From assembly GCA_034717495.1 (NCBI GenBank), contig JAYELL010000068.1:7596-71595 (forward strand): 64,000 bases of DNA, in the 5' to 3' direction. Position 1 is the stretch's first letter. Each line of letters begins with the position of its first letter. A program made the translations under genes and the position numbers. Origin of the DNA: Chloroflexota bacterium. GTDB lineage: Bacteria > Chloroflexota > Anaerolineae > JAAEKA01. Under the pieces are notes generated by a model, which made no database searches, was not told the DNA's origin, and saw only the letters and a list, made by a program, of their open reading frames with translations. Positions 7,926-26,931 of this stretch are shown here, piece after piece.

Positions 7926-8576
7926 GTGCAACCTACCCGCTATCGCATCCTGGAGATAATCAAAGAAAACGGCGATGTTACCGTTGCCGAGCTTGCCCGC
8001 CAATTGGGCATGGCGCCAGTATCAGTGCGCCACCACCTGGACGTCCTGCAGGGGGAAAATCTGATCTGGACGCCCCGGGTGCGACGTCCTGGAACGGTTG
8101 GGCGCCCCCGGCAGGTGTATGCCCTGACTGAAGCTGCAAACAGTCATTTTCCCAACAACCACGGCCTGCTTGCGGATTCCATGCTTGTTGAACTGAAACA
8201 GCTTCTGACCCACGAACAGTTGACTGCCATGCTTGAACGCATGGCAGATACCATGGTCGACGCCGGCGGCGTTCCAGCGAAAGATGCCGATATCGGGATT
8301 CGCATCGACCAGGCTGTCGATTACCTGAACGATCGAGGGTATCTGGCTCGACGGGAGGAACGGGAAGGGGAGATTTACATCAACACGCTCAACTGCCCGT
8401 ATAGCGAGGTAGCCAAAAACCACCCCGAGCTTTGCCTTATGGATCTGCGTTTGGTGGAAAACCTGATTGGTGGTAAACTCACCGCCGTCACGCGGCTGTC
8501 ACAGGGTGATTGCCGCTGCGCATACAGGATCGATTGCACTGCGGCCCAAACCATCCAGGCGGATCCGCTGAAATGA
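7926..8576 (+). CDS. SufR-like winged-helix regulator with Fe-S cysteines
   Basis: 216 residues starting at GTG. Residues 5-60 form a DeoR/ArsR-type helix-turn-helix (TVAELARQLGMAPVSVRHHLDVL), followed by GRPRQVYALTEAA. The C-terminal half holds NCPYSEVAKNHPELC and GDCRCAYRIDC, the cysteine pattern of the SufR family, whose known members bind a [4Fe-4S] cluster and repress Fe-S assembly genes. The downstream genes are an Fe-S enzyme (MoaA) and an IscA-type carrier, consistent with control by Fe-S status. The gap to moaA is 13 bp, so they are probably co-transcribed. Confidence 0.85.
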   Translation: MQPTRYRILEIIKENGDVTVAELARQLGMAPVSVRHHLDVLQGENLIWTPRVRRPGTVGRPRQVYALTEAANSHFPNNHGLLADSMLVELKQLLTHEQLTAMLERMADTMVDAGGVPAKDADIGIRIDQAVDYLNDRGYLARREEREGEIYINTLNCPYSEVAKNHPELCLMDLRLVENLIGGKLTAVTRLSQGDCRCAYRIDCTAAQTIQADPLK

Positions 8577-9703: not shown

Positions 9704-10126
9704 ATGTCAACAGCAACGCAGACGGCGGAACAGGAAACTACTACGGTTGAGGGCGTGTTCATTAGCGAGAACGCCGCCGTCAAATTGGGCGACATTCTGA
9801 CTGAGAAGGGCCTGGCCGAAACCCATGGACTGCGCGTCTTTGTTCAGGGTGGTGGTTGTGGCGGCATGCAATACGGCATGAGCTTTGAGGACACCCAGCG
9901 ATCTGGCGATCAGGTTTTTGATCAAAACGGCCTGAAGGTCTATATCGACCCCACCAGCCTTTTCTATATGAACGGCGCCCGCATCGATTATGTCGACAGT
10001 CTGATGGGCGGCGGATTCCATATCGACAACCCCCAGGCAACATCTTCGTGCGGTTGTGGAAGCTCCTTCCGCACCGAGAAAAGCCACACCGGACAGGAGA
10101 TGCCCGACAGCTGCGGCTACAACTAA
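9704..10126 (+). CDS. erpA: IscA/ErpA-type iron-sulfur carrier
   Basis: 140 residues. The HesB/IscA core begins at about residue 18 (VFISENAAVKLGDIL). The three cluster-binding cysteines are visible: one in GGGCGGMQYGM and two in the C-terminal SSCGCGSSFRTE. It passes Fe-S clusters to target enzymes. The gene follows moaA by 31 bp and overlaps the next start by one base (TAATG). The tail after the CGCG motif is about 20 residues longer than in typical A-type carriers. The symbol is a family assignment; IscA and SufA cannot be separated from ErpA here. Confidence 0.88.
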   Translation: MSTATQTAEQETTTVEGVFISENAAVKLGDILTEKGLAETHGLRVFVQGGGCGGMQYGMSFEDTQRSGDQVFDQNGLKVYIDPTSLFYMNGARIDYVDSLMGGGFHIDNPQATSSCGCGSSFRTEKSHTGQEMPDSCGYN

Positions 10127-10509
10127 TGGCTGCCAGGTTCTTCACCGTAGAACAAGCCAACAATCTACTGCCCCGGGTCATCGAACTGGTCGAGGAGATC
10201 AGGCAGGCCCGGCGGGTGATCTCAGCGGCCCGACCCGACATGATGCCGGTGTTGGAAAAATCCATCGGCAATGGTGGAAGTCGCAAGGCTGGAGAACTCC
10301 TGCCTGAGTTCGAAAGAATACAGGCTGCGACACAGTCTCTGGAAGAGCTGGGCGTTTTTCTCAAAGACCCAGACCTTGGTCTGGTTGACTTTCTCCACCG
10401 GCGTCCCGATGGTCGGGAGGTATTTCTCTGCTGGCAATACGGTGAAGACTCTGTTTTATTCTGGCATGACATCCACGCAGGCTTCGCAAGGCGCGAACGC
10501 CTGAGTTGA
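10126..10509 (+). CDS. DUF2203 family protein
   Basis: 127 residues from the ATG at 10126, which overlaps the stop of the Fe-S carrier gene, indicating translational coupling. The sequence opens with FFTVEQANNLLPRV and closes with EVFLCWQYGEDSVLFWHD, both typical of DUF2203 proteins. The middle is helical and ends in GLVDFLHRRPDGREV. No enzymatic motif is known. The coupling to an Fe-S carrier suggests a related housekeeping role, which is inference only. Confidence 0.85.
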   Translation: MAARFFTVEQANNLLPRVIELVEEIRQARRVISAARPDMMPVLEKSIGNGGSRKAGELLPEFERIQAATQSLEELGVFLKDPDLGLVDFLHRRPDGREVFLCWQYGEDSVLFWHDIHAGFARRERLS

Positions 10510-13700: not shown

Positions 13701-13728
13701 TTGACAAACCCATTCCCGTGGCTATAAT
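13701..13728 (+). promoter_or_regulatory. Full-consensus promoter of the radical SAM operon
   Basis: TTGACA (13701-13706) and TATAAT (13723-13728) both match the sigma-70 consensus exactly, with a 16-bp spacer. It is the best promoter in the window. The predicted leader to the first gene at 14003 is about 270 nt and contains hairpins and heptamer repeats. Confidence 0.85.
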
Positions 13729-14002: not shown

Positions 14003-15451
14003 ATGCGTGTTCTGTTTATTGAAAAGCAGATTGATTACGAACCCCAGGGAATCATGCAGCTTTCTGCTGTATTGAAGGAGGCCGGGCATGAGACCCACCT
14101 GGCGATTGGGGCCCAGGAAAATCCCGCCGATGTTGCCAAATTGATCGAGCCGGATGTTGTGGCCTACAGTGTAATGACTGGCTCTCACCAATGGTACTTC
14201 GACATGAATCGAAAAGTCAAGGCTGCCCTGGGTGACAAACAGCCATTTTCCATTTTTGGAGGCCCCCATCCAACTTTCTTCCCCGAGATGATCTCCGAAC
14301 CAGGTATCGATGGTATCTGTGTGGGTGAAGGGGAAAAAGCCATCGTTGAATTGACCGACTCGCTGGCCAACGGCGGTCTGAAACCCGACTTGCCCAACTG
14401 GTGGCTTAAGCTGGAGGATGAGATCATCCGCAATCCGGTTGGCCCGTTGATCAAGGACCTTGGGGAATTGCCAAGGCCCGATCGGGACCTGGTCTATGAT
14501 AAACACGAGTATAGCCGCATCACCCCCATCAAACACTTCATGGGGTCGCGGGGATGCCCTTACAATTGCACCTACTGCTTCAATCACGCCTACTACCAGA
14601 TCTACAGCCGCGAGCGACGAGGCAACCAGCGCCCAGTGGACGCCATCATCGACGAGGCAAACTGGGTGCGTTCCCGCTGGCCTCTGCAGCAGGTCGTTTT
14701 CATCGATGATCTGTTCATCATCTACGACGACTGGCTGGAAGAATTCGCCGACAAGTGGCCAAAACAGGTCGGCTTACCCTTCTTCTGCAATGTGCGGGCA
14801 AACCTGATCGTCAAGGGTTCCCGCAAGGCCGACCTGCTGAAAAAGGCTGGCTGTGGCACCGTCAGCATGGGTATTGAAACTGCCAACGATCGAATCCGCT
14901 TGCAATTGCTTAAGCGTCGCATGACCCAGGAAGACATGGTCCAGGCCGGCAACATCATCCGTGACGCCGACATCCACATTACCAGCACCAACATCCTCGG
15001 CTTGCCCAGCAGTACCCTGGAAGATGATCTGAACACCATGCGACTAAACGCCGCTGCCAGGATCAGCTACGCCCATGCCTTTCTCTTCCAACCCTACCCG
15101 GGCACCGAACTTGGCCAGTTTGCCCAGGAGGAGAACTACATGGTCGGCTCCTTTGACGATATCAGCGAAATCGCCTGGGAACGCTCGATCATGGTTTATG
15201 AGGACGAAGATGAAAAACGGCAGGTTGAACATCTTCAGCGATTGTTCGCATTTGGCGTAGAATGGCCCTGGCTTGAACCGGCCATTCTACGGCTGATCAA
15301 AGCACCCCACAACTGGCTAATCGATTCAGTCTATTGGTGGGCACATAAACTGTTCAAGGGCTGGATGATCAAACGACGAATCCATCCCGTGAAGATGAGT
15401 GTCCAGGAGCTATTCACGGCAGCCCGGCAGCTGATGTCCATTCGGTCATAA
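14003..15451 (+). CDS. B12-binding-domain radical SAM enzyme 1
   Basis: 482 residues, first gene of the operon, with a GGAGG site about 14 bp before the ATG. Residues 1-130 form a Rossmann-type cobalamin-binding domain ([31 protein letters not shown]) without the DxHxxG motif, as in many BchE-like members. The radical SAM cluster motif CPYNCTYC lies near residue 185, followed by a TIM-barrel segment ending in [13 protein letters not shown]. The C-terminal 100 residues are helical and resemble those of the other copies. Known relatives methylate or rearrange unactivated carbons. The substrate is unknown. Confidence 0.9.
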
Positions 15452-15560
15452 CGGACCCGTCTGCCTCGCAGCCACATCACAACCCATTTATGACGCAGGT
15501 CTACAGCCCGCGGCTCCGGCAACAGCAAGCCCGCAGCCTGGCAAATAAGGAGAAAAACAC

Positions 15561-16001
15561 ATGGTGCGAAGAACAGCTCGTCGGGGAGTTCGCCGAACAA
15601 CCCGCCGAAGGACAGTGCGGCGTCGCAGGCGACGACGAAGACGAATATTGGTCGGCGGTGCCGTGCTGATCGGCGGCGGTGCCCTGGCCTATAAACTGAC
15701 CAAAAAGGATGCCGACAAGATCGAGCAATCCACCGGCGTTCCACCGGAGGAACTCGAGGACGAAGACCTGACAAAAGCCATGCAGGAGCTGGGCATTCAA
15801 GCCCAGCCATTGACGGAGGAAGACAAGGCCGCTCTCGCCAAAGCTGACGCCACCGAGGCAGCACAGCCGGCGTCCCAGGCGTCACCAGCTGATGCGCCAG
15901 ATTACATGGAACAGCTCGAACAGCTGGGCGCGTTGCATGAGCAGGGAATCATCACGGACGAGGAATTCGAGGCCAAGAAAAAGCAACTACTGGGCCTTTA
16001 G
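15561..16001 (+). CDS. Arg-rich membrane-anchored SHOCT-domain protein
   Basis: 146 residues. The first 30 residues are more than half arginine, followed by one hydrophobic segment (ILVGGAVLIGGGALAYKL, about residues 29-46). An acidic, Ala/Pro-rich linker leads to a C-terminal SHOCT motif (DYMEQLEQLGALHEQGIITDEEF, about residues 117-139). SHOCT segments often end small membrane or oligomerising proteins. The arginine cluster could bind phospholipid or nucleic acid. It lies 109 bp after the first radical SAM gene and in the same direction, so it may be part of the operon; its role there is unknown. Confidence 0.75.
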   Translation: MVRRTARRGVRRTTRRRTVRRRRRRRRRILVGGAVLIGGGALAYKLTKKDADKIEQSTGVPPEELEDEDLTKAMQELGIQAQPLTEEDKAALAKADATEAAQPASQASPADAPDYMEQLEQLGALHEQGIITDEEFEAKKKQLLGL

Positions 16002-16092
16002 GCTCAGTCATCGACCAACCCTCCCGCCGGTGTTACCGTGTGGCTGCGGCAGTCACCGATCCGCTGGCGGGTTTGTAGCGAGTTGGACTCCT

Positions 16093-16980
16093 GTGAAAAC
16101 CTGGACGCCTGCGGATATCCGGCAACGGGTTGCCGAGGTCCCATATTGGCACTATGCATTTGATCTGGGCGATGGCATCGTCACCGTGCCCCGGCATGGC
16201 GACGCCCGCCGCCAGTTTCAACGCCTGGACCACATCATGCCTCCCTTGCTGCATCTTTGCGGCGGCAGCTTGCACGGCCTTAGCGTACTCGATGTAGGCT
16301 GTAACCAGGGTTTCTGGAGCATGGAAGCTGCCAGGGCAGGCGCCGATGCTGTTCTTGGCATCGAGGGACGCCGCGAGCATGTGGCGACCGCTCGATTCGT
16401 CGCCGATGTGCGAAAGTTTGACAACGTCAGATTTGAAACGCAAGATGCCCTTGACGGGTCCCTTGCCCGGCACGAGCCCTTTGATGTCGTGTTGTGCCTG
16501 GGCTTGCTATACCATGTAGACCGCCCGCTGGAATTATTGGATCAGCTTTTCAGATTGACCAGGCGCTATCTGGTGGTGGATACATCGGTCATCGATGTGG
16601 CAGCACCAGTCCTGCAGCTGTTGTTCGAGGACCCTGAGGATCCCCGCAACGCCGTGGGAGATGGCCTGGTAGCGGTTCCAAGCAGGTCAGCGGTGGAGCG
16701 TATGCTCTGGCACGTGGGCTTCCCACAAGTGTGGTCCCTGCCGCAGCGGACCAATGAGTTACCACCGGCCTATCTGCAGGGACGGCGGGCGACCTGGATC
16801 GCAAGCCGGACCCAAAACGATAAGCCATCCATAGTCGATTCGTCGCTGCTGGTGGCCGTACCCGACAACGACCAGATCCGTTCCGCACCAGAGCTGTTGA
16901 ATCCCCTTTCAGCAGAACCGGTCGGACGTTTCCTATATGAAAAACTTCGGCAGTTCAAGTTCAGAAATAGACAGAAGTAA
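16093..16980 (+). CDS. SAM-dependent methyltransferase
   Basis: About 295 residues from a GTG at 16093; upstream in-frame starts extend back to 15892, overlapping the previous gene, and are less likely. Motif I is VLDVGCNQGFWSMEAA and the acidic residue after the second strand is in LGIEGRREHV; VVLCLGLLYHVDRP is the post-I region. The layout resembles CmoB/DUF1698-type class I methyltransferases, including the N-terminal WYHxFD-like WHYAFDL. It is placed among radical SAM genes, 37 bp before the next one, and probably acts in the same pathway. Confidence 0.82.
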   Translation: MKTWTPADIRQRVAEVPYWHYAFDLGDGIVTVPRHGDARRQFQRLDHIMPPLLHLCGGSLHGLSVLDVGCNQGFWSMEAARAGADAVLGIEGRREHVATARFVADVRKFDNVRFETQDALDGSLARHEPFDVVLCLGLLYHVDRPLELLDQLFRLTRRYLVVDTSVIDVAAPVLQLLFEDPEDPRNAVGDGLVAVPSRSAVERMLWHVGFPQVWSLPQRTNELPPAYLQGRRATWIASRTQNDKPSIVDSSLLVAVPDNDQIRSAPELLNPLSAEPVGRFLYEKLRQFKFRNRQK

Positions 16981-17017
16981 AAAGCAGCCTTAACCAACTG
17001 TTGTCTGGAGATTTTCC

Positions 17018-18520
17018 ATGCGCGTTGCCCTGATCAATCCGCTTTTTCGCCTACCAATCGATACCCGGACCACGCCTCACCTGGGATTGGCCTATCTGGG
17101 CTCAGTCTCCCAGCAACGTGGCGATACAGTTCGCATATTCGATTCCGATGTCGAGGATCAATCAATCACAGAGTTCGTTCGGGAGTTTCAGCCAGATCTG
17201 GTTGGAATCACAGCAAACACGCCTCAGGTCAAACAAGCGTGGCGAACGGCAAAGGCGATCAAAGCAGTCACCGATGTGCCCATTGTACTGGGTGGCCCTC
17301 ACCCCAGCGTGACGGTCGAGGACCTTGACTTCGAGTCGGTCGAGAGACCCTATGTGGACATGGTCGTGCGAGGTGAAGGCGAAGCGACCTGGATTGCAAT
17401 CTCTGAGCGTATCGAGGAATTCAAGCGCGATCAGGAAGACACTTCCTGTGCCAACCTCTTCGCGCCGGGAAAACAACTGTGGACCGACCTGCCGGGCATT
17501 TCTTACCAGACGACCGACGGCGAAATGTACCGTAACATGGATGCGACTACCATCGCCGATCTGGACAGCTTGCCCTGGCCGGCCTATGATCTCTTCAAGA
17601 TGGAGAACTATACCAACCTGCAGCCCGCGACCGATGATGTCGATGGCGCGCGCAGTTTCAGTATCCTGACCAGTCGCGGTTGTCCCTACCGCTGCACATT
17701 CTGCTCCCAATCGATCATGCCCATCAAGTGGCGAGCCAGAACCCCGGAAAACGTGATCGAGGAATGGCGCCACCTGGTCCGCGACCTGGGCGCCGAGGAA
17801 ATCGGCGTCCTGGACGACAGCGCCAACATTCGTCGCGATCGTCTTTACACCATCGCAGAAATGCTGATCGAGGACGAATTGAACCACGTACCATGGATCT
17901 TCGTCAACGGAATCCGCGCCAATATGGCAGAAAAACCTTTGATGGCAAAGCTCAAGCAAGCCGGCCTCAAACGCACAGCTTTCGGGGTCGAAACCGGCAA
18001 CGCCGACATTCTCAAGACTATCGATAAGCGCGTCGACCACGATACAATCCGGCAAGCCTTCAAGAATTGCAAGGAAGTGGGTCTGGAGACCATCGGTTTT
18101 TTCATTATCGGTCTACCGGGAGATACCCGGGAAACCATGCAGGATACCATCGATTTTGCCATCGAACTGGACCCGCTGATCGCCAACTTCAGCATGATGA
18201 CCCCCTATCCGGGCACGGTGGTCTACGAAACCGTGAAGCAGCAGGGAAACCTGCTGGTCACCGATTGGGAGGACTACGTCTTTTTCGAGCAGAAGGCCCG
18301 CTTTGAGATGGGTGATATGACGGCAGAACTGGTGGAGGAAATGTACCGCAAGGCCTACCGCCAGTACTACCTGCGCCCGGGCCCAATCTCGCGTCGGATG
18401 AAAAGCAAGGATTTCTGGGTAAACCTGCCGCGCAACCTGCGTATCGCCCGCCGAACGTTCCTGAAGAAAGACGAGAAAACGGAACTCCGTCGGGCCATCG
18501 AAGCGCAGGGATCTGTCTGA
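17018..18520 (+). CDS. B12-binding-domain radical SAM enzyme 2
   Basis: 500 residues. The N-terminal B12-type domain shows MRVALINPLFRLP, HLGLAYLGS, VGITANTPQV and LGGPHPSVTVEDL. CPYRCTFC lies near residue 222. The barrel contains FGVETGNADIL and IGFFIIGLPGDTRE, and ends with MMTPYPGTVVYE. About 80 C-terminal residues include EEMYRKAYRQYYLRP, a pattern repeated in enzyme 5, which suggests the two are closest paralogues. A GGAG site precedes the ATG. Confidence 0.92.
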   Translation: MRVALINPLFRLPIDTRTTPHLGLAYLGSVSQQRGDTVRIFDSDVEDQSITEFVREFQPDLVGITANTPQVKQAWRTAKAIKAVTDVPIVLGGPHPSVTVEDLDFESVERPYVDMVVRGEGEATWIAISERIEEFKRDQEDTSCANLFAPGKQLWTDLPGISYQTTDGEMYRNMDATTIADLDSLPWPAYDLFKMENYTNLQPATDDVDGARSFSILTSRGCPYRCTFCSQSIMPIKWRARTPENVIEEWRHLVRDLGAEEIGVLDDSANIRRDRLYTIAEMLIEDELNHVPWIFVNGIRANMAEKPLMAKLKQAGLKRTAFGVETGNADILKTIDKRVDHDTIRQAFKNCKEVGLETIGFFIIGLPGDTRETMQDTIDFAIELDPLIANFSMMTPYPGTVVYETVKQQGNLLVTDWEDYVFFEQKARFEMGDMTAELVEEMYRKAYRQYYLRPGPISRRMKSKDFWVNLPRNLRIARRTFLKKDEKTELRRAIEAQGSV

Positions 18521-18556
18521 TTTCACCAACTGCACCCTTTATACCGGAGAATATCG

Positions 18557-20026
18557 ATGAGAATCTCCCTCATTGGTCCAAAATGGAATGAGATGATCAA
18601 TAGCTACCCGCCGCTGGGTCTGGGCTACCTGGCAGCGGTTGCCGAGCAGGAAGGCCACGAGGTTCGGATTCACGATTTTGGGCTTTTTCCCTTTCGCCCT
18701 ATCGAACAGGATGCCCAGGAGGTAATTGATTTCAGGCCCGATCTGATCGCCCTGACTTCGATGACAACCTCGTTTCATTATGTCGAGCGATTGTTGGCGC
18801 AGCTCAAAAAACAGCTGGCGATCCCGGTGATTATCGGAGGACCCCACGCAACCTCCCTGCCCGACGGCACCCTGTCGAATCCCCACATCGATTACCTGAT
18901 CTACGGCGAAGGCGAATATATCTGGCAGGACTTTTTGCGCGCCCTGCATTCGGGAGACGAGCGCTGGGATCAGATCCAGGGCCTCTGGTACAAGGATGGG
19001 GACAAGATCATCCCCGGCGGCGGCCGCAAGCCGATTGAAGATCTGGATGCCCTGCCCTTTCCCTCCCGCCACCTTTTCGACCTGAACAAATATCCTCTCT
19101 ACGCGCCCAACGGGGAGCCCATGCTCACCATTTTGAGCAGCCGCGGTTGTCCCTACAACTGCTCCTTTTGCTTCAAGGGTATCGTAGGCCGCTCCTACCA
19201 CCAGCGAAGCCCGGAGAACATTGTGGCGGAACTGCGGGAGGTTCACGACACCTACGGAGTCCGCAACTTTTACTTCATCGACGATCTCTTCACCATCGAC
19301 GTGCGCCGCCTGGAGGAAATCCTCGATCGTTTCATCGAGGAAGACCTTGATTTTCGCTGGCGCTGCCTCGCCCGGGTGGATCGGGTCAACCCTGAGCTGT
19401 TACAGAAGATGTACAGGGCTGGCTGTCGCCAGATCCACTTCGGCATCGAAAGCGGCAACGAGGATGTGCTGAAGCGGACGGCAAAACACATCAACCTGAA
19501 TCAGGTGCGCGATGCCGTACGTTGGACCGAGGATGCAGGCATTCGCTCCAAAGGCTACTTCATCCTTGGCCTTCCGGGCGACAATGAAGAGACCATGCAG
19601 GAGACCATCGAGTTTGCCGCCAGCCTGGATCTGACCGAAGCCATGTTCTCCATTGCCACGCCATTCCCAGGTACCGCATTATGGAACGAGTTGGTGGAAC
19701 GCAATCCGGGCACGGTCTACAACGCCGATTTCACCAAGACCTACTACTACAACAACTATACCGCCGAGATCGCGCCTTTCATGAACGTTTCGGAAGTGGG
19801 TGACATGGAACTCAGCGGACTGGCAATGCAAGCCCGCGAGCGCTTCCAGGCAGTAAAGGAACAACGAAAATTCGTCAAGTACTTTGGGCCCGATTGGGGC
19901 AAGCGAGTCTGGCGTGTTTCCAGGGTCAAGCCTGTAAACACCACGGCCAAGGTACTTCTGGATGCGGGTCTCTTCCCGCGCTTCCGAAAGCTCCAACCCA
20001 GAGAAGGATCCAAATCCTGGGCCTAG
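18557..20026 (+). CDS. B12-binding-domain radical SAM enzyme 3
   Basis: 489 residues. The B12-type domain ([55 protein letters not shown]) is followed by the cluster motif CPYNCSFC near residue 198. The barrel shows FIDDLFTIDVRRLEEI and FGIESGNEDVLKRT, with a typical ATPFPGTALWNEL segment. The start follows a CGGAGAA site. The acid-rich IDD motif before the cluster face matches that of enzyme 1. As for the others, the fold is clear and the substrate is not. Confidence 0.92.
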   Translation: MRISLIGPKWNEMINSYPPLGLGYLAAVAEQEGHEVRIHDFGLFPFRPIEQDAQEVIDFRPDLIALTSMTTSFHYVERLLAQLKKQLAIPVIIGGPHATSLPDGTLSNPHIDYLIYGEGEYIWQDFLRALHSGDERWDQIQGLWYKDGDKIIPGGGRKPIEDLDALPFPSRHLFDLNKYPLYAPNGEPMLTILSSRGCPYNCSFCFKGIVGRSYHQRSPENIVAELREVHDTYGVRNFYFIDDLFTIDVRRLEEILDRFIEEDLDFRWRCLARVDRVNPELLQKMYRAGCRQIHFGIESGNEDVLKRTAKHINLNQVRDAVRWTEDAGIRSKGYFILGLPGDNEETMQETIEFAASLDLTEAMFSIATPFPGTALWNELVERNPGTVYNADFTKTYYYNNYTAEIAPFMNVSEVGDMELSGLAMQARERFQAVKEQRKFVKYFGPDWGKRVWRVSRVKPVNTTAKVLLDAGLFPRFRKLQPREGSKSWA

Positions 20027-20031
20027 CCCGG

Positions 20032-21249
20032 ATGCTTATGTCTTCAGAAACAAGCACCGACCAGACAGAGAGCACTGAGATCGAACTGATAGCTGATACA
20101 GAGGGCCGCAACAACGGTCGCAAACGACCGGAACAGCCACTGTTTAGTGAATCGCCGGAGCTGGATCGCTCCAACGGTGCCAGGGCGCGTCGACGCGTTC
20201 GTCACGAGATGAAACAGCTTCGGAATGCTGTTCTGGGTCCTATGAAATGGGCAGCCTATCAGACAGGCCAGACGCGCTATGTTCCTCCTCCCGACCGGAT
20301 GTATATCGAGTCGACCAATTTGTGCAATCTGGGCTGCGTGATGTGTCCAACCGGGTTGAAGCAGATCACCCGACCCGGCGGCTACATGGATTTTGATCTG
20401 TTCACTGCGATCGTGGACGAGATGGCGCCCTACGTCAAGGCAACGACCCTCCATATTTGGGGTGAGCCCTTGATGCACAAACGCATCTTCGACATGATTG
20501 CCTACACCAGGAAAAAGGGGCTGCGCTCTGAGATCAGTACCAACGCCACCCTTCTCGACGAACGTCGCGCCAGGGGCCTGCTGGACGCCGGACTCAGCGG
20601 TATCTACCTGTGCCTGGATGGTTTCAGACCGGAAACCTACGAGGCAATTCGTGTCAAAGCTGACTATCAACGCACCAATGAAAACATCCTGCGTTTTCTC
20701 GACTTGAAGGCAGAGGGTGGCTACGAAAACCCATACGTGAACCTGCAGATTATCCAGATGGAACAGACCATGCCGGAAATCGAGGAATTCATAGAAGCAT
20801 GGAGTCTGCCCGGCATCGACAACATCAATGTGAAGCCTTTTGACTCATGGGGCGGACAGGTTGAGGCCATCAATGATCTGCGGGCCGACGACCCTGCCCA
20901 CTTCATGCCAGATGCACGCTACGCATGCCCCAACCTGTGGTATCACGTCCACATCTATTGGGATGGTCGTATCGCCATGTGTGACAGGGACTTCAACTTG
21001 AACTACGATCTGGGCAGCGTGATCAGCCCCGATGGTGAAGTCGAGGTGATGAAGAACTGGAACGGCCCCAAAATGCAGGGGTTACGCCAAATCCATGTCG
21101 ACGGCGAAGCAAATTCGGTCTCACCGTGTGACTCGTGTGTCGAGTGGGCCTGGTGGCGGCCGCGTCTTTTTGGTGGGTACGGTAACTATAACGCGGTTGT
21201 CATGGAAGAGCAACAGCAACGAGACAGCGGAATCGGCAGCAGTCAGTAG
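20032..21249 (+). CDS. Radical SAM/SPASM protein without B12 domain
   Basis: About 405 residues from ATG 20032 (or 20038), 5 bp after the previous stop. There is no cobalamin domain: about 80 polar residues precede YIESTNLCNLGCVMCPTG, which carries the CxxxCxxC motif near residue 98. LHIWGEPLMHK and LCLDGFRPETYEAI are typical of the MoaA/SPASM branch. C-terminal cysteines (CPNLW, MCDRDF, CDSCVEW) would bind auxiliary clusters. SPASM enzymes commonly modify peptides (for example PqqE, AlbA, anSME), though some act on other substrates. It is the main reason to ask whether this operon acts on a peptide. Confidence 0.88.
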   Translation: MLMSSETSTDQTESTEIELIADTEGRNNGRKRPEQPLFSESPELDRSNGARARRRVRHEMKQLRNAVLGPMKWAAYQTGQTRYVPPPDRMYIESTNLCNLGCVMCPTGLKQITRPGGYMDFDLFTAIVDEMAPYVKATTLHIWGEPLMHKRIFDMIAYTRKKGLRSEISTNATLLDERRARGLLDAGLSGIYLCLDGFRPETYEAIRVKADYQRTNENILRFLDLKAEGGYENPYVNLQIIQMEQTMPEIEEFIEAWSLPGIDNINVKPFDSWGGQVEAINDLRADDPAHFMPDARYACPNLWYHVHIYWDGRIAMCDRDFNLNYDLGSVISPDGEVEVMKNWNGPKMQGLRQIHVDGEANSVSPCDSCVEWAWWRPRLFGGYGNYNAVVMEEQQQRDSGIGSSQ

Positions 21250-21273
21250 CTGCCCAACACACACTCACAGTTT

Positions 21274-22686
21274 ATGGCAATAAAAAAAGCCTATCTTGTA
21301 CAACCTGGCCGCGACGGGACATTCCTGAAGCGGGGCACTATGGCACCCTACACCTTGATGCGCCTTGCCTCTCTGGTTCCCGACGAAGTTGATGTCGAGA
21401 TCATCGACGAGGACCTTCGGCCCGTTCCGTTCGACCAATTAGGTCCCAACGATCTGGTTGGCATAACAGCAAAAACCCTTCAGGTCGACCGGGCTCGCTG
21501 GATCGCCGAGCGGGTTCAGGCCCGCGGCGCCAAAGTGGTCATCGGCGGTACCCACCCAACCCTGGCGCCGGACGAGGTCGCACAGTGGGCGGATAGCATC
21601 GCGGTGGGCGAAGCCTATCGCACCTGGCCCCAGATGATCACCGATTTCGACCGCGGCGATCTGAAACCTCGCTACGTTGACGAGGAGTGGGCCAACCTGG
21701 ACTATCTGCCACCGTTGACCGACCGGGTCCTCCAGCAGGTGGATGAGACCCGCAATTATTGGACACCCTACCTGGAGATCACGCGGGGCTGTCCGCGCAA
21801 CTGCACCTTTTGCACCGCCATCCGGGTCTCGGGGCGCGTGATGCGTTTGCGCCCGGTGGAGCAGGTGGTCGAGGAGATCCAGCGGCGCAAGATCAAACGG
21901 TTTTTCCTGACAGACGACAACTTTGGCCTCAATTTCAGGCTGCACCCGGAATATATGGAAGAGCTGTTCAAGGCGTTGCGCAAGCTTCCGCTGCAGGGAT
22001 GGACCAGCCAGGCGGAGCAGTTGGTTGCCGATTATCCCGACCTGCTCAAGCTGGCCAGGGAAGCCCATCTTGACAAGTTCTTCATCGGCTTTGAGAGCAC
22101 CAATCCGGACAATCGCGGGGAGTTGGGCGGCAAGGCCAAGGGCAACATCGAACGTTACCGCCAGGTCATCGACCGAATCCACCAGGCCGGTATCGGCGTC
22201 GTCGGGCTTTTCGTATTCGGATTCGATGGCGATCCGCCGGCCATTTTCCAGGATACCTACGATTTCATGCGCACCAGCGAGCTGGACGGTATCAGCATCA
22301 CGATCCTGACACCCTATGTGGGCACACCTCAGAGGGACACCTGGATCGAGGAAAATCGTTTGATCCCTGGCGTCCCCTGGTCGTTATATGATACCAACCA
22401 TGTTACCTATTACCCCGCCCAGATGGGCCCGGAGCAGCTTGCCCAGGGCTACGACTGGTTGGCAGCCAGGCTCTACGGCTGGCGTGGTATCGCATCGAGA
22501 GGGACACACCAGCTGTTGCGCCAACCGCTGCGTGACTGGCCCCGTCGGGCATTCAGCAGCTTCAGCACCGACTTCGGATACCGGTTGGAATGCAGCCACC
22601 GCAACTGGGTACATTCCGATGACGGCATCGGCTACCCGGTGCGGGACGCGGCACGACGCGGTATTGTGCCCGCCCTGCAATACTGA
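21274..22686 (+). CDS. B12-binding-domain radical SAM enzyme 4, HpnP-like layout
   Basis: 470 residues. The N-terminal B12-type domain has VGITAKTLQVDRAR and VVIGGTHPTLAPDEV. The cluster motif CPRNCTFC is near residue 173, followed by GRVMRLRPVEQVVEEI and FFLTDDNFGLN. The order TDDNF, then a WTSQAEQLVADYPDLL segment, then FFIGFEST resembles hopanoid methylase HpnP/HpnR and DUF4070-type proteins, which methylate carbon centres of lipids. The C-terminus contains YDTNHVTYYPAQM, as in that group. A lipid or isoprenoid substrate is therefore a candidate, though only by resemblance. Confidence 0.9.
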   Translation: MAIKKAYLVQPGRDGTFLKRGTMAPYTLMRLASLVPDEVDVEIIDEDLRPVPFDQLGPNDLVGITAKTLQVDRARWIAERVQARGAKVVIGGTHPTLAPDEVAQWADSIAVGEAYRTWPQMITDFDRGDLKPRYVDEEWANLDYLPPLTDRVLQQVDETRNYWTPYLEITRGCPRNCTFCTAIRVSGRVMRLRPVEQVVEEIQRRKIKRFFLTDDNFGLNFRLHPEYMEELFKALRKLPLQGWTSQAEQLVADYPDLLKLAREAHLDKFFIGFESTNPDNRGELGGKAKGNIERYRQVIDRIHQAGIGVVGLFVFGFDGDPPAIFQDTYDFMRTSELDGISITILTPYVGTPQRDTWIEENRLIPGVPWSLYDTNHVTYYPAQMGPEQLAQGYDWLAARLYGWRGIASRGTHQLLRQPLRDWPRRAFSSFSTDFGYRLECSHRNWVHSDDGIGYPVRDAARRGIVPALQY

Positions 22687-22701
22687 GAGAAGGAACTACC
22701 C

Positions 22702-24153
22702 ATGCGAGTCATTCTTGCCAGCCCAGAGGCAAAAACCTGGTCCTCCAGGAAACACATCCCGTTGGGATTGGGCTATCTGGCGGCCACGCTGCGGGAAGGC
22801 GGTCACGAACCGCTGATCTACGATGCTGCCATCGAGCAGTTCCCGGTTGAGCACTACATAGAACGGGCGGAATCGCAGGGCCGGCCCTTTAAGGCCATCG
22901 GCATTAGCGCCACAACGCCCCTGATTGCCGACGCCTGGGAGATGGCCAGGACCACCAAAAAGCTCGGCCTGACCACCATACTGGGCGGCCCGCATTTGAC
23001 CATCATGCCCAGGGAAAGCCTGACGGACGAGCATCCCTGCGTTGATTATGTCTTCAAAGGGGAGGCAGAACATTCCTTCCTGGAACTGATCGATACCCTG
23101 GATGCCGGACGGCAGCCCGACTTACTGCCGGGCATGCATACGCGGCGCAACGGTGAAATCGTATCCGACTTCAGCTCGCCCATGATCGAAGATCTGGATG
23201 GCCTGCCCTTTCCGGCCCATGATCTGTTCAAGATCGACCAATATACGAACCTTCAGCCGCTGACCGATGGGCTTGATCCCGATGCCCGCTCCTTTACCAT
23301 CCTGACCAGCCGGGGTTGTCCTTACAAGTGCACCTTCTGCTCCAAACCGGTGACGGGCGATACCTGGCGCGGCCGCAGCGTGGAGAACGTCGTCTCGGAA
23401 TGGCGCTGGCTGGTCAAAGACCTGGGCGCAACGGAGATCGGCGTCACAGATGATATCTGGAACCTCAAGCTGCCCCGGGCAAAAGAGCTGTGCAGGCGAT
23501 TGGTCGAGGAAGGATTGAACACAGTGCCATGGACTACCGTTCACGGCATGAAGGTCAACCATGTGGACCTGGAGCTCTTCCAGTTGATGAAGGCAGCAGG
23601 CGCCAGGCGGGTTGGCTTCGGCGTGGAGAATGGTGACCCATACATGCTGCGCAACGTCATTCGCAAGGGACAGACCCTGGACCAGGTACGCGATGCCTTC
23701 AAATATTCGAAGCAAGCCAGGCTTCAGACCATGGGCTTCTTCATTTTTGGCATGCCTTATGAGACCGAAGAAACCATGGAAGCAACGATCCAGCTTGCAC
23801 TGGAATTGGATCCAGACCTGGCCAATTTCATGTTGGCAGCGCCCTTCCCTGGCACCAGGATGTGGGACATGATCCAGGAGGGTGGCGAGGTGTTTGCCAA
23901 TGAATGGCCTGACTTCGCTATTCACGACCAGAAGGCACGTTTCACCATGAACGATGGCCAATACGATCCTGACCTGGTAGTGCGCAAGTGGCGAGAGGCC
24001 TATCGCCGCTTTTATCTCTACCGCCCCAAACGTGTTTGGGAAAAGGTATCACAAAAGAGCTTTTGGACACAGTTGCCTGCAACGGTCGACAACGCACGTC
24101 GCTTTTTCGTGGGAGGCAACGATCGACTGGCGCCAGGCAAAAAAGCAGCCTGA
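22702..24153 (+). CDS. B12-binding-domain radical SAM enzyme 5
   Basis: 483 residues, 15 bp after the previous stop with a GAAGGA site. The B12-type domain shows [27 protein letters not shown] and [13 protein letters not shown]; the cluster motif CPYKCTFC is near residue 206. Shared blocks with enzyme 2 include [19 protein letters not shown] before the motif and [17 protein letters not shown] at the C-terminus, so the two probably arose by duplication. [11 protein letters not shown] and [15 protein letters not shown] are barrel landmarks. Confidence 0.92.
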
Positions 24154-24175
24154 AAAACAACCGGAGGCGATTGAA

Positions 24176-25576
24176 GTGGCAACTTCATGGCCTTGGCAGA
24201 AAAAAGAAAAGTCGAATATCCTTTGGGTTGATCTGGGTGATCTGGGTGATCTGGTCCATCCTGGCGGACCTCACGAGCAATGGCAGGATCATGGCCTGGG
24301 TCTGCTGCGAACGATCCTACACCAGAATGGCATCCAGACCGATCTGGCCTCCACCCGGGCGGTAACTTCCTGGGATCAACTCAAACCCCAGCTTGCCGGC
24401 TACGACATCCTATTGATGAACGTTCGTAGCTACACCTACCCTGTTGCCTTGAAAACGGCCCGGCTCTTCAAGGAGTTGAACCCCACCGGCCTGGTCCTGA
24501 CTGGTGGCATGCACGCGACCGTAGCGCCCGATGAAATGGAGGCTGTCGAAGCCTTCGATAAGATATGCATGGGCCCGGGCGAGAAAACCATCGTCGATCT
24601 CGTCAGGGATCCAGAGGCCTTTCCCCGGGTCTTTCCTGGCGAAGGAGCTCGCTCCATGGGTGACTGGCCCATGATCGACCGCACCCTATGGCCCAGGCCG
24701 GTCGGCTGGCGTACAAAGCGCAGGTGGAAGTGGCGCTGGCCCCTGGAACCTGAATGTGGTTGGGGGCCAGGTCCGGTAGCGACAATCCTGACCAGCCGGG
24801 TATGCCCCTGGCAGTGTGTCTTCTGCAACGAAAACTCCTTTATCCCGAATATGGGCCGCAAACCGGTCGATCAGGTCATCGACGAACTTAACTATCTGGA
24901 CCGCACCTACGGCGTGGGCTCGGTGGTGATCCACGATTCGATGTTTTTCCAGAATCCTCGCTGGCTTCAGGAATGGATCGAAAAATACCCGCGCCAGACC
25001 AAGGGCTGGACCTATTGGGCAGCTGGCCGGGCAGATACAGTCAGGCAATGGCCAGATCTGTTTGAGGCGCTGGTCAAGGAAACCAACTGGCGGACCATTT
25101 CCATCGGCTTCGAATCGGGCAGCGATCGCATTCTCAAGCTGCTCAACAAGGAGTGCACCGAAGAGGACAATTATTTCACCATCGAGCTTGTGAACCGGAT
25201 TGGAGACGAGTTGCAGGCCAGGGGTGAACAGCCCCCGGTGTTCTGGTCCAACATTATGCTGGGCATTCCAGGCGAGGAGCCGGAGGATGCCTTCAAGACC
25301 ATGCGTATGTTAAAGGGCATGAAACGAGTCATGCCCTCGATCGCCTTCTACGCACCCTACCCTGGCTCAGCCCTGGGGTTCCAGCTGATCGCCGAGGGCA
25401 AAAGCCTGATGTCCGAGGACAACTACCACCGTTTTCCCGATGATGAAAAAGTCAAGGGAATCGATTACCAATTCTACCGTGACCTGTTGGCGGGTCAATA
25501 CGACGACGAGATCAATCGCGGCTTGATCGGGGCTGGCAGATCCGATCTTTATCAGGACGCGCTGGTGAAAGCATGA
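24176..25576 (+). CDS. B12-binding-domain radical SAM enzyme 6, divergent
   Basis: About 467 residues from a GTG at 24176 with a perfect GGAGG at 24163-24167; starts further upstream would overlap enzyme 5. The B12-type domain is recognisable from LLMNVRSYTYPVALKTA and LTGGMHATVAPDEM but is shortened at its N-terminus. The cluster motif is CPWQCVFC near residue 210, in VCPWQ instead of the usual RGCPY. FGIE is replaced by IGFESGSDRIL, and YAPYPGSALG closes the barrel. It overlaps the next small gene by four bases (ATGA), a sign of translational coupling. Confidence 0.88.
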   Translation: MATSWPWQKKEKSNILWVDLGDLGDLVHPGGPHEQWQDHGLGLLRTILHQNGIQTDLASTRAVTSWDQLKPQLAGYDILLMNVRSYTYPVALKTARLFKELNPTGLVLTGGMHATVAPDEMEAVEAFDKICMGPGEKTIVDLVRDPEAFPRVFPGEGARSMGDWPMIDRTLWPRPVGWRTKRRWKWRWPLEPECGWGPGPVATILTSRVCPWQCVFCNENSFIPNMGRKPVDQVIDELNYLDRTYGVGSVVIHDSMFFQNPRWLQEWIEKYPRQTKGWTYWAAGRADTVRQWPDLFEALVKETNWRTISIGFESGSDRILKLLNKECTEEDNYFTIELVNRIGDELQARGEQPPVFWSNIMLGIPGEEPEDAFKTMRMLKGMKRVMPSIAFYAPYPGSALGFQLIAEGKSLMSEDNYHRFPDDEKVKGIDYQFYRDLLAGQYDDEINRGLIGAGRSDLYQDALVKA

Positions 25577-25779
25577 GTAGTTTCAGCAATCCCCACTACA
25601 TGTATCTCTTCGATATGTCCAGTGGAAAAAAGAAGCTTGCCTACGGCGAGTCGCCCGAAGACGCGCTGGAAATCCTCGCTATTCGACTCTCCGACAAGGA
25701 AATGGCCCGGATCGATCGCGACAGTTTCATCAAGATCAACCAGCGCGAGCTGCAGCAGTACGTCAAGGATCTCGGCTGA
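25573..25779 (+). CDS. Orphan 68-residue protein coupled to radical SAM genes
   Basis: A 68-residue protein whose ATG overlaps the stop of radical SAM enzyme 6 (ATGA) and which ends 15 bp before the next radical SAM gene. The sequence opens MSSFSNPHYMYLFDMSSGKK, has no cysteine and no signal peptide, and carries a helical acidic middle (ESPEDALEILAIRLSDKEM). It ends in QRELQQYVKDLG. I do not recognise a family. It could be a small partner protein or a peptide-recognition subunit; a peptide substrate is possible because it contains four tyrosines and has a plausible leader, but no core motif is evident. Coding status is supported by position, coupling and lack of competing frames. Confidence 0.7.
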   Translation: MSSFSNPHYMYLFDMSSGKKKLAYGESPEDALEILAIRLSDKEMARIDRDSFIKINQRELQQYVKDLG

Positions 25780-25794
25780 AATCGCGACTCCCTC

Positions 25795-26871
25795 ATGCTT
25801 GAACTGATCCCCAAACTTCCCCTTTACCAATCCTTCAGACGTTTCGGTTGGCCTCGCATGTACCCATTTAGCGTGGTCATCAGCATTAGCTACCGCTGTA
25901 ATTCTCGCTGCCGGACTTGCGACGTGTGGCAAAAGCCCAACGACGACCTGACTCTGGAGGAATGGGACCAGGTTTTTCGCAAGCTGGGTCGCTCGCCTGT
26001 CTATCTGACCTTCACCGGCGGCGAACCCTTTTTGCGCCAGGATCTGGACCAGATGGTGATCAGCGGCTACCTGCACACCAGGCCCGGATATATCACCATC
26101 CCCACCAATGGCTTGCTTACCGATCGGATCCTGGCCCAGACGGAAAACATCTGCCGGCAGTGCAGCAATGCCCAGATCGGTCTCAACCTTAGCCTCGATG
26201 CCATCGGCGATATGCACGATGACATCCGCGGCGTACCCGGCAACTGGCAGCGGTCCATGGAGACCTGGCAGCGATTAAAGGCGCTTCAGGAACGATTCTC
26301 CAATCTGGTGTTGACGGTGCACACCGTGGTCAGCCGCTTCAACATCCATCTGTTCGAGGAGATCTACGACGGGTTGCAGAAACTTGACCCGGATAGTTAT
26401 ATCACCGAGGTTGCCGAGGAACGGGTAGAATTGGATACGGTGGGTTGGGGCATTACCCCCATGGCGCAACAATACGCGCCCGTCGCCGACTTCCTGAGTG
26501 AAAAGGCGCGCCAGGCGCCGGCCCGCGGAATCGCTCGATTTACCCAGGCCTTCCGGGCCCAGTACTACCAGCTGGCAAAACAGACGCTGTTGCAGCAAAC
26601 CCAGGTCATCGACTGTTACGCCGGCTGGGCCTCCTGCCAGATTGCGCCCGACGGCGATGTGTGGTCCTGCTGCATCCGGGCCGAGGGGGTCGGCAATCTG
26701 AGGGAGACCGAGTACGATATCGCTCCCATCTGGTTCGGTGAGGAAATGGCTGCCATGCGCCGCTCTATTGCCAACAAGGAATGCTCATGTCCCATGGCCA
26801 ACGCCAGCTATGCCAACATGCTGTTGCACCCACCGACCCTGGCCCAGATAGCGCTGGATGTTGCGCGTTGA
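25795..26871 (+). CDS. Radical SAM protein with C-terminal Fe-S cysteines
   Basis: 358 residues, last gene of the operon. The cluster motif [13 protein letters not shown] is near residue 34 with no B12 domain before it. The barrel shows [26 protein letters not shown] and [17 protein letters not shown], as in the MoaA/SPASM-type branch. The C-terminal half carries [20 protein letters not shown] and [10 protein letters not shown], likely auxiliary-cluster ligands. The N-terminus ([20 protein letters not shown]) is typical of radical SAM proteins that act on lipid-linked or peptide substrates. It follows the 68-residue orphan gene directly. Confidence 0.88.
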
Positions 26872-26899: not shown

Positions 26900-26931
26900 C
26901 GGGATGTTCCTCGAGGAACATCCCGTCTTTT
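26900..26931 (+). terminator. Terminator of the radical SAM operon
   Basis: A perfect 13-bp palindrome, CGGGATGTTCCTC followed directly by GAGGAACATCCCG (26900-26925), and then a T-rich TCTTTT. It lies 28 bp after the last radical SAM gene. With the promoter at 13701 it delimits the transcription unit. Confidence 0.85.

Follow-up and report, generated by a model that had tools for sequence, protein, structure and literature searches.

The 68-codon gene Q, at positions 25573 to 25779 on the forward strand of the window (by which we mean the whole stretch of DNA analysed here, 64,000 nucleotides long), encodes a small and extremely conserved protein whose family has no name. Among 298 evenly drawn genomes of the class Anaerolineae, it was never met without one particular enzyme, the B12-binding/radical SAM enzyme c1 encoded just upstream (24176 to 25576, forward strand, GTG start). 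Our preferred reading, to which we give a probability of about 0.58, is that Q serves c1 as a dedicated partner subunit without catalytic activity of its own. Namely, because Q is absent from sampled Anaerolineae that lack c1, it is probably a dedicated helper of this enzyme. B12 radical SAM enzymes form a large group, mostly uncharacterised, and here a small protein is tied one-to-one to one of them over dozens of genera. That said, co-occurrence alone suits equally well a reading in which Q is the protein substrate of c1, and both readings are weighed below.

Conservation of Q

The start codon of Q overlaps the stop codon of c1 as ATGA (25573-25576, read directly from the letters), and 15 bp separate its end from the ATG at 25795 of the radical SAM/SPASM gene c8. 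The product, MSSFSNPHYMYLFDMSSGKKKLAYGESPEDALEILAIRLSDKEMARIDRDSFIKINQRELQQYVKDLG, has no cysteine, tyrosines at positions 9, 11, 24 and 63, and a near-neutral charge (10 basic and 11 acidic residues). The overlap, the 15 bp gap, the lack of cysteine and the several tyrosines had been pointed out in a first-pass annotation of this DNA, and all were re-read in the sequence. The same annotation called the gene an orphan, which holds in so far as Pfam and NCBIfam searches gave no named family for Q, but not in so far as tblastn finds homologues at 96 places.

These 96 places were confirmed in a single-protein scan of genome contigs, and the 80 relatives kept are 63-79% identical to Q and, with one exception, full length. 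The resulting alignment, with 78 sequences and 68 columns, has a mean column identity of 80%, columns M1, S2, S3, F4, S5, P7, H8, M10, Y11, F13, L67 and G68 being invariant. Codon entropy amounts to 1.2 at position 3, 0.58 at position 1 and 0.34 at position 2, while the median dN/dS is 0.07. Taking homologues, conservation, codon-position pattern and dN/dS together, Q is a genuine gene. Its most conserved parts are the N-terminal MSSFxxPH and the C-terminal LG: mean entropy is 0.19 for residues 1-8 and 0 for residues 67-68, as compared with 1.58 for residues 47-56. Divergent members (51-63% identity), two of which carry a two-residue insertion, retain the S-F-x-x-P-[HT] start and the L-G end. 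Across 92 gap-free sequences, the constant tail residues are S3, F4, P7 and F13, with L at position 4 in one further, shortened member, and H8, Y9 and Y11 are substituted in some lineages. The alignment of Q homologues contains no hypervariable core. In other words, the homologue comparison that had been proposed for telling a precursor from a partner gives uniform conservation, as for a partner, with no variable C-terminus. Of the original question, whether Q is a substrate peptide or a partner, the partner half survives, while the idea of a PqqA-like precursor is left unsupported by this uniformity.

Two irregular cases were seen along the way. Only one record (L066) contains two Q copies, at 8001-8231 and 10114-10317 with about 2 kb between them; in the first copy, which resembles a decaying duplicate, the C-terminal end is altered after residue 63 (LQEYPPQPAMWDEWRSKR). 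At G276:C2:8780-8983, the Q gene is reported with one in-frame TAG.

Predicted structure of Q

The AlphaFold2 model of Q, built from 78 sequences, has a pLDDT of 87.7, with block means above 90 from residue 11 on and values below 50 for residues 1-4, invariant though these are. Strands are predicted at 9-15, 20-25 and 47-55 and helices at 28-38, 41-46 and 57-66, which gives residues 9-66 the order strand-strand-helix-helix-strand-helix (bbaaba). A well-folded body with an invariant yet seemingly unstructured tail is, going by the model, what one would expect if the tail took on order only upon binding to a partner.

Searches for fold relatives of Q stayed at background: the best E was 1.4 with Foldseek against the PDB and 0.02 against BFVD, and the best VIA-align Z was 5.3 (eL20/LX), where values below 8 are at background level. 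A profile of the family gave no match to the sequences of solved structures. The missing fold match should not be taken as proof of a new fold. Two outcomes had been named beforehand as counting against a link to the enzymes, a lack of homologues next to radical SAM genes or a fold from an unrelated known family; in fact, homologues adjoin radical SAM genes, and no such fold was matched.

The companion enzyme

The enzyme c1 carries a Radical_SAM Pfam match and a match to the B12-binding family PF02310, which would correspond to an N-terminal cobalamin-binding domain of the Rossmann type; the latter match scores 31.7 bits, just short of the cut-off (32.1). Its cluster motif C-x3-C-x2-C is present, with C210, C214 and C217 invariant in 79 sequences. 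The model from these 79 sequences (pLDDT 80) matches the folds of MtaB/MiaB, MgmA, AprD4, TokK, CysS and OxsB, the top match being 9A6D (MtaB-YvfG, Bacillus subtilis), while the best PDB match by sequence is MgmA (9CCB, E 1.7e-5). A further invariant cysteine, C194, precedes the cluster motif by 16 residues and is part of a C-G-W-G sequence; the sister enzymes lack it, and it is possibly an extra ligand or a catalytic residue.

Downstream of the sister B12 enzymes, which are 28-33% identical to c1, an HMM search with filters off gave no Q-like ORF. In three loci (L200, L204 and L207), where the sister enzyme has about 29-32% identity to c1, another gene follows it, the start of which we take to read like a dTDP-glucose 4,6-dehydratase. 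This gene order suggests that the sister branch takes part in the chemistry of sugars or of the envelope.

Co-occurrence in Anaerolineae and the phylum

In the class sample, Q occurs in 107 of 298 genomes, with one match each, c1 in 116 and the SPASM enzyme c8 in 122. All 107 Q genomes contain c1, at 68-87% identity, and the count of Q without c1 is zero (phi 0.94; Fisher p 5e-71 before kinship correction). Meanwhile, c8 is present in 67 Q genomes and missing from 40 (phi 0.33). The enzyme to which Q belongs is thus c1 (107/107) and not the SPASM enzyme at 25795 (67/107), which is ruled out as an obligate partner by this comparison.

The two genes usually lie side by side, Q being found less than 1 kb downstream of c1 and on the same strand in 99 of the 107 genomes; the median distance is 46 bp, and an ATGA-type overlap occurs in 17 genomes. 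For the eight Q loci with no c1 in reach, c1 was found elsewhere in the genome every time, adjoining the SPASM gene in six of them. As all eight of these unlinked genomes keep both genes, the pairing outlasts gene separation. Conversely, c1 occurs without Q in nine genomes, in seven of which the contig is broken at or near the 3' end of c1. One of the nine, G183, has 1.4 kb of sequence beside c1 with no Q in it and is a real enzyme-only genome, and G004, where the 237 bp beside c1 are filled by a short tandem repeat, is perhaps another. Some observations weigh against a partner: no natural fusion of Q and c1 was seen in 112 pairs, the distances of c1 and Q correlate only moderately (r 0.59), and there is a genus whose Q has 57% identity to that of the window, while its c1 is still 81% identical.

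In a sample of 400 genomes from the phylum, Q was found in ten, all of them Anaerolineae, and a close c1 (72-100%) was found in the same ten, the next-nearest relatives of c1 being only about 28-33% identical. Since Q and a close c1 appear in this sample only there, the pair looks like an innovation within Anaerolineae.

In some Caldilineaceae (L025, L030, L035 and L058), about 2 kb with two genes of 342 and 200 amino acids lie between c1 and Q, both of which are intact; the first inserted gene starts like a ParA-type ATPase.

Genomic setting

In the window, the pair lies within a series of radical SAM genes that share one direction (14003-26871), eight in all, six of the B12 type and two SPASM. 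The six have both Radical_SAM and B12-binding Pfam matches, although two of the latter fall below the 32.1-bit cut-off, namely those of gene 21274 (27.5) and gene 24176, that is, c1 (31.7). SPASM (PF13186) exceeds its Pfam cut-off in 20038-21246 and 25795-26868, in agreement with the two SPASM-type enzymes of the first-pass annotation. Among the matches listed, none of the operon enzymes reaches an NCBIfam cut-off.

All named neighbours lie on the forward strand. The B12/radical SAM enzymes r2 (17018-18520) and r5 (22702-24153) recur beside c1-Q in distant families, the B12/radical SAM enzyme r3 (18557-20026) and the radical SAM/SPASM enzyme sp1 (20038-21249) are recurrent neighbours in some families, and the B12/radical SAM-like enzyme r4 (21274-22686) and c8 (25795-26871) are recurrent neighbours as well, the latter not obligate. 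The pair is found in two settings. In the first, r2, r5 and a SPASM gene recur even at 51-70% identity, with r3, sp1 and r4 in closer families. In the second, the pair stands after genes for a SufR-type regulator, MoaA, an IscA-type protein, DUF2203 and a rhodanese, and a gene of about 107 codons, without a name, lies downstream of it. Next to a radical SAM enzyme, Fe-S supply genes are to be expected and do not name its reaction. These neighbourhoods were taken from tblastn with named representatives, because mechanical ORF picks include antisense ORFs. As far as gene content can tell, the recurring genes point to a multi-step radical SAM pathway in several Anaerolineae families, of which the c1-Q pair would be a marker. 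A literature search on Anaerolineae B12 radical SAM operons gave nothing useful.

Just 3' of the last radical SAM gene, a terminator-like hairpin (26900-26925, forward strand; 11 pairs, then TCTTTT) probably marks the end of the transcription unit; it is the strongest stem of a consensus scan that was, overall, at the level of shuffled sequence. A sigma-70-type promoter-like site ahead of gene 14003 (13701-13728, forward strand), a 12/12 match to the consensus only, is a possible start.

Variation of the tail and enzyme position 213

In one genus, with seven paired loci, the Q tail reads SF[DE]HPT in place of the usual SFSNPH. The only c1 sites changed throughout this genus and more than 95% conserved elsewhere are Q213K, R290V/K, C327V and D331E. 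Judged from secondary structure, all four would lie on segments after barrel strands, that is, on the active-site side, and Q213 is inside the cluster loop C210-P-W-Q-C214-V-F-C217. Position 213 changes on four tree branches, and Q residues 5 and 6 also change on three of these four. In terms of co-variation with the tail, it ranks second of 466 positions, with a nominal p of 0.004 from few events. Since, at this rank, the nominal p is not significant after correction, we treat the signal as a lead and not as proof, and the coincidence of tail changes with rare changes of the c1 cluster loop is suggestive only.

Partner or substrate

If Q is a subunit of c1, its folded body (residues 9-66) would bind the enzyme stoichiometrically, and the tail S2-S3-F4-x-x-P7-H8, probably flexible, would lie on the active-site face of the c1 barrel. 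There, it could complete, shield or gate the pocket, the substrate of which would be supplied by the surrounding multi-radical-SAM pathway. In favor of a partner, Q is single-copy and conserved, c1 is present in every Q genome, and the genes are usually adjacent and in the same direction. Reconstitution of c1 without Q would then probably fail.

A rather unlikely alternative, and the one that survives best, is that Q is instead the protein on which c1 acts. Namely, the tail would enter the active site and one of its residues would be C-methylated or otherwise modified, after which the modified Q would act elsewhere, perhaps as a carrier or a protein-bound cofactor. The strict one-to-one tie of Q with a single dedicated enzyme fits such a role, as does the fact that the tail is both the most conserved part of Q and predicted to be flexible. 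What is more, MgmA, the best PDB sequence match of c1 (E 1.7e-5), methylates a protein glutamine, according to the excerpted text of PMC11796369. However, this match is weak, and the small-molecule enzymes AprD4, TokK and CysS fit the c1 fold about equally well. The candidate residues would be P7, S3 or F13, where no change is seen, and F4 is changed once; tyrosine and histidine chemistry is unlikely, as Y9, Y11 and H8 are substituted in homologues. Finally, neither a protease nor a downstream user of a modified peptide is a constant neighbour. We prefer the subunit because Q appears to be a complete, stable domain, because no such protease or constant user is seen, and because other radical SAM enzymes recur around the pair, which argues for a multi-step pathway acting on some other substrate.

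Obligate pairing and an invariant tail are predicted by the subunit and the substrate readings alike. Tentatively, one can picture an obligate two-component B12 radical SAM system in which the Q tail inserts into the c1 active site, be it as a gate or as a modified segment (a protein-borne cofactor), and which has been kept through much of Anaerolineae; we consider this possible but doubtful. If true, a two-component system with a small protein without known relatives would be of a new kind.

Comparison with known systems

The nearest precedent for a partner is OxsB, a B12 radical SAM enzyme of the oxetanocin pathway that needs its partner OxsA (PMC13331322), the only such case reported in PMC13331322 and PMC13142503, which counts against a partner here; for BchE, the need for a partner was suspected and found not to apply (PMC13142503). 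OxsA/OxsB and Q/c1 are alike in pairing a B12-dependent radical SAM enzyme with a second protein close by. However, OxsA belongs to the HD-domain phosphohydrolases and has an active site itself, while Q has no HD domain (no Pfam match) and a different predicted fold.

PqqD is likewise a small protein beside a radical SAM enzyme, which it binds (PMC10906245), and Q resembles it in being encoded next to such an enzyme. Unlike Q, PqqD is an RRE, and what it presents to the SPASM enzyme PqqE is a separate peptide; the companion of Q is of the B12 type, and there is no separate peptide gene. In RREs, the three helices follow one another in the sequence, and so do the strands of the three-stranded sheet (PMC7470986), whereas the predicted Q order is strand-strand-helix-helix-strand-helix, and none of the 78 Q members gave an RRE or PqqD match in Pfam or NCBIfam at E up to 1. 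The identification of Q as an RRE, or as the PqqD-type recognition protein that had been offered as one option, finds no support on either ground.

As for the enzyme itself, MgmA, the methyl-coenzyme M reductase glutamine methylase, is a B12 radical SAM enzyme acting on a protein (from the excerpted text of PMC11796369). Its structure (9CCB) is the closest solved one to c1 by sequence and among the best by fold, but identity in the structural alignment is about 18%, and the same excerpted text names no accessory protein for MgmA. By its title, the entry 9A6D is a radical SAM enzyme, MtaB, modelled with a second protein, YvfG, much like c1 with Q. YvfG is a small protein. MtaB, however, is a tRNA methylthiotransferase in the wording of NCBIfam, and no relation between YvfG and Q was seen. 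A literature search on the MtaB-YvfG pair returned nothing.

Regulator and precursor readings

We consider it very unlikely that Q is a regulator or an RNA-binding protein linked to c1 only by the common transcription unit. The top structural rows, ribosomal eL20/LX at Z about 5, would suit such a function but are at background (Z below 8; Foldseek best E 1.4), and the near-neutral charge of 10 basic and 11 acidic residues does not favor it. The SufR-type regulator, IscA-type, MoaA, DUF2203 and rhodanese genes near Q in many families could also be read in this way; a plain operon neighbour, however, should occur without c1 in some genomes, and this is so in 0 of 107.

Least probable of all is a RiPP precursor peptide like PqqA, on which the two SPASM enzymes would act before it is cut to yield a small product, a reading invited by a small gene between radical SAM genes in an operon with two SPASM domains but rejected on the conservation pattern and the predicted fold: there is no leader/core split, both ends are invariant, each genome has one copy, the predicted fold is stable, and the SPASM gene, missing from 40 of 107 Q genomes, is not an obligate associate. 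Some Q homologues do show short, weak matches to two leader families, with E 0.0036 for PF14407 and at best 0.017 for NF038399, sharing with NHLP/Franean1_4349-type leaders a short helix motif, P-x-x-A-L ... L-T/S-x-E-E. However, the PF14407 score, seen in one member, is 13.6 of 48 bits, far under the cut-off; against members of that family from the phylum, hhalign gives a probability of 15% over a helix of about 20 of the 68 residues, and Q has no core region, so kinship with these leaders is rejected as well. Genuine PF14407 (Frankia_peptide) RiPP-leader genes do occur elsewhere in the phylum (L167, L168 and L169), unrelated to the Q locus.
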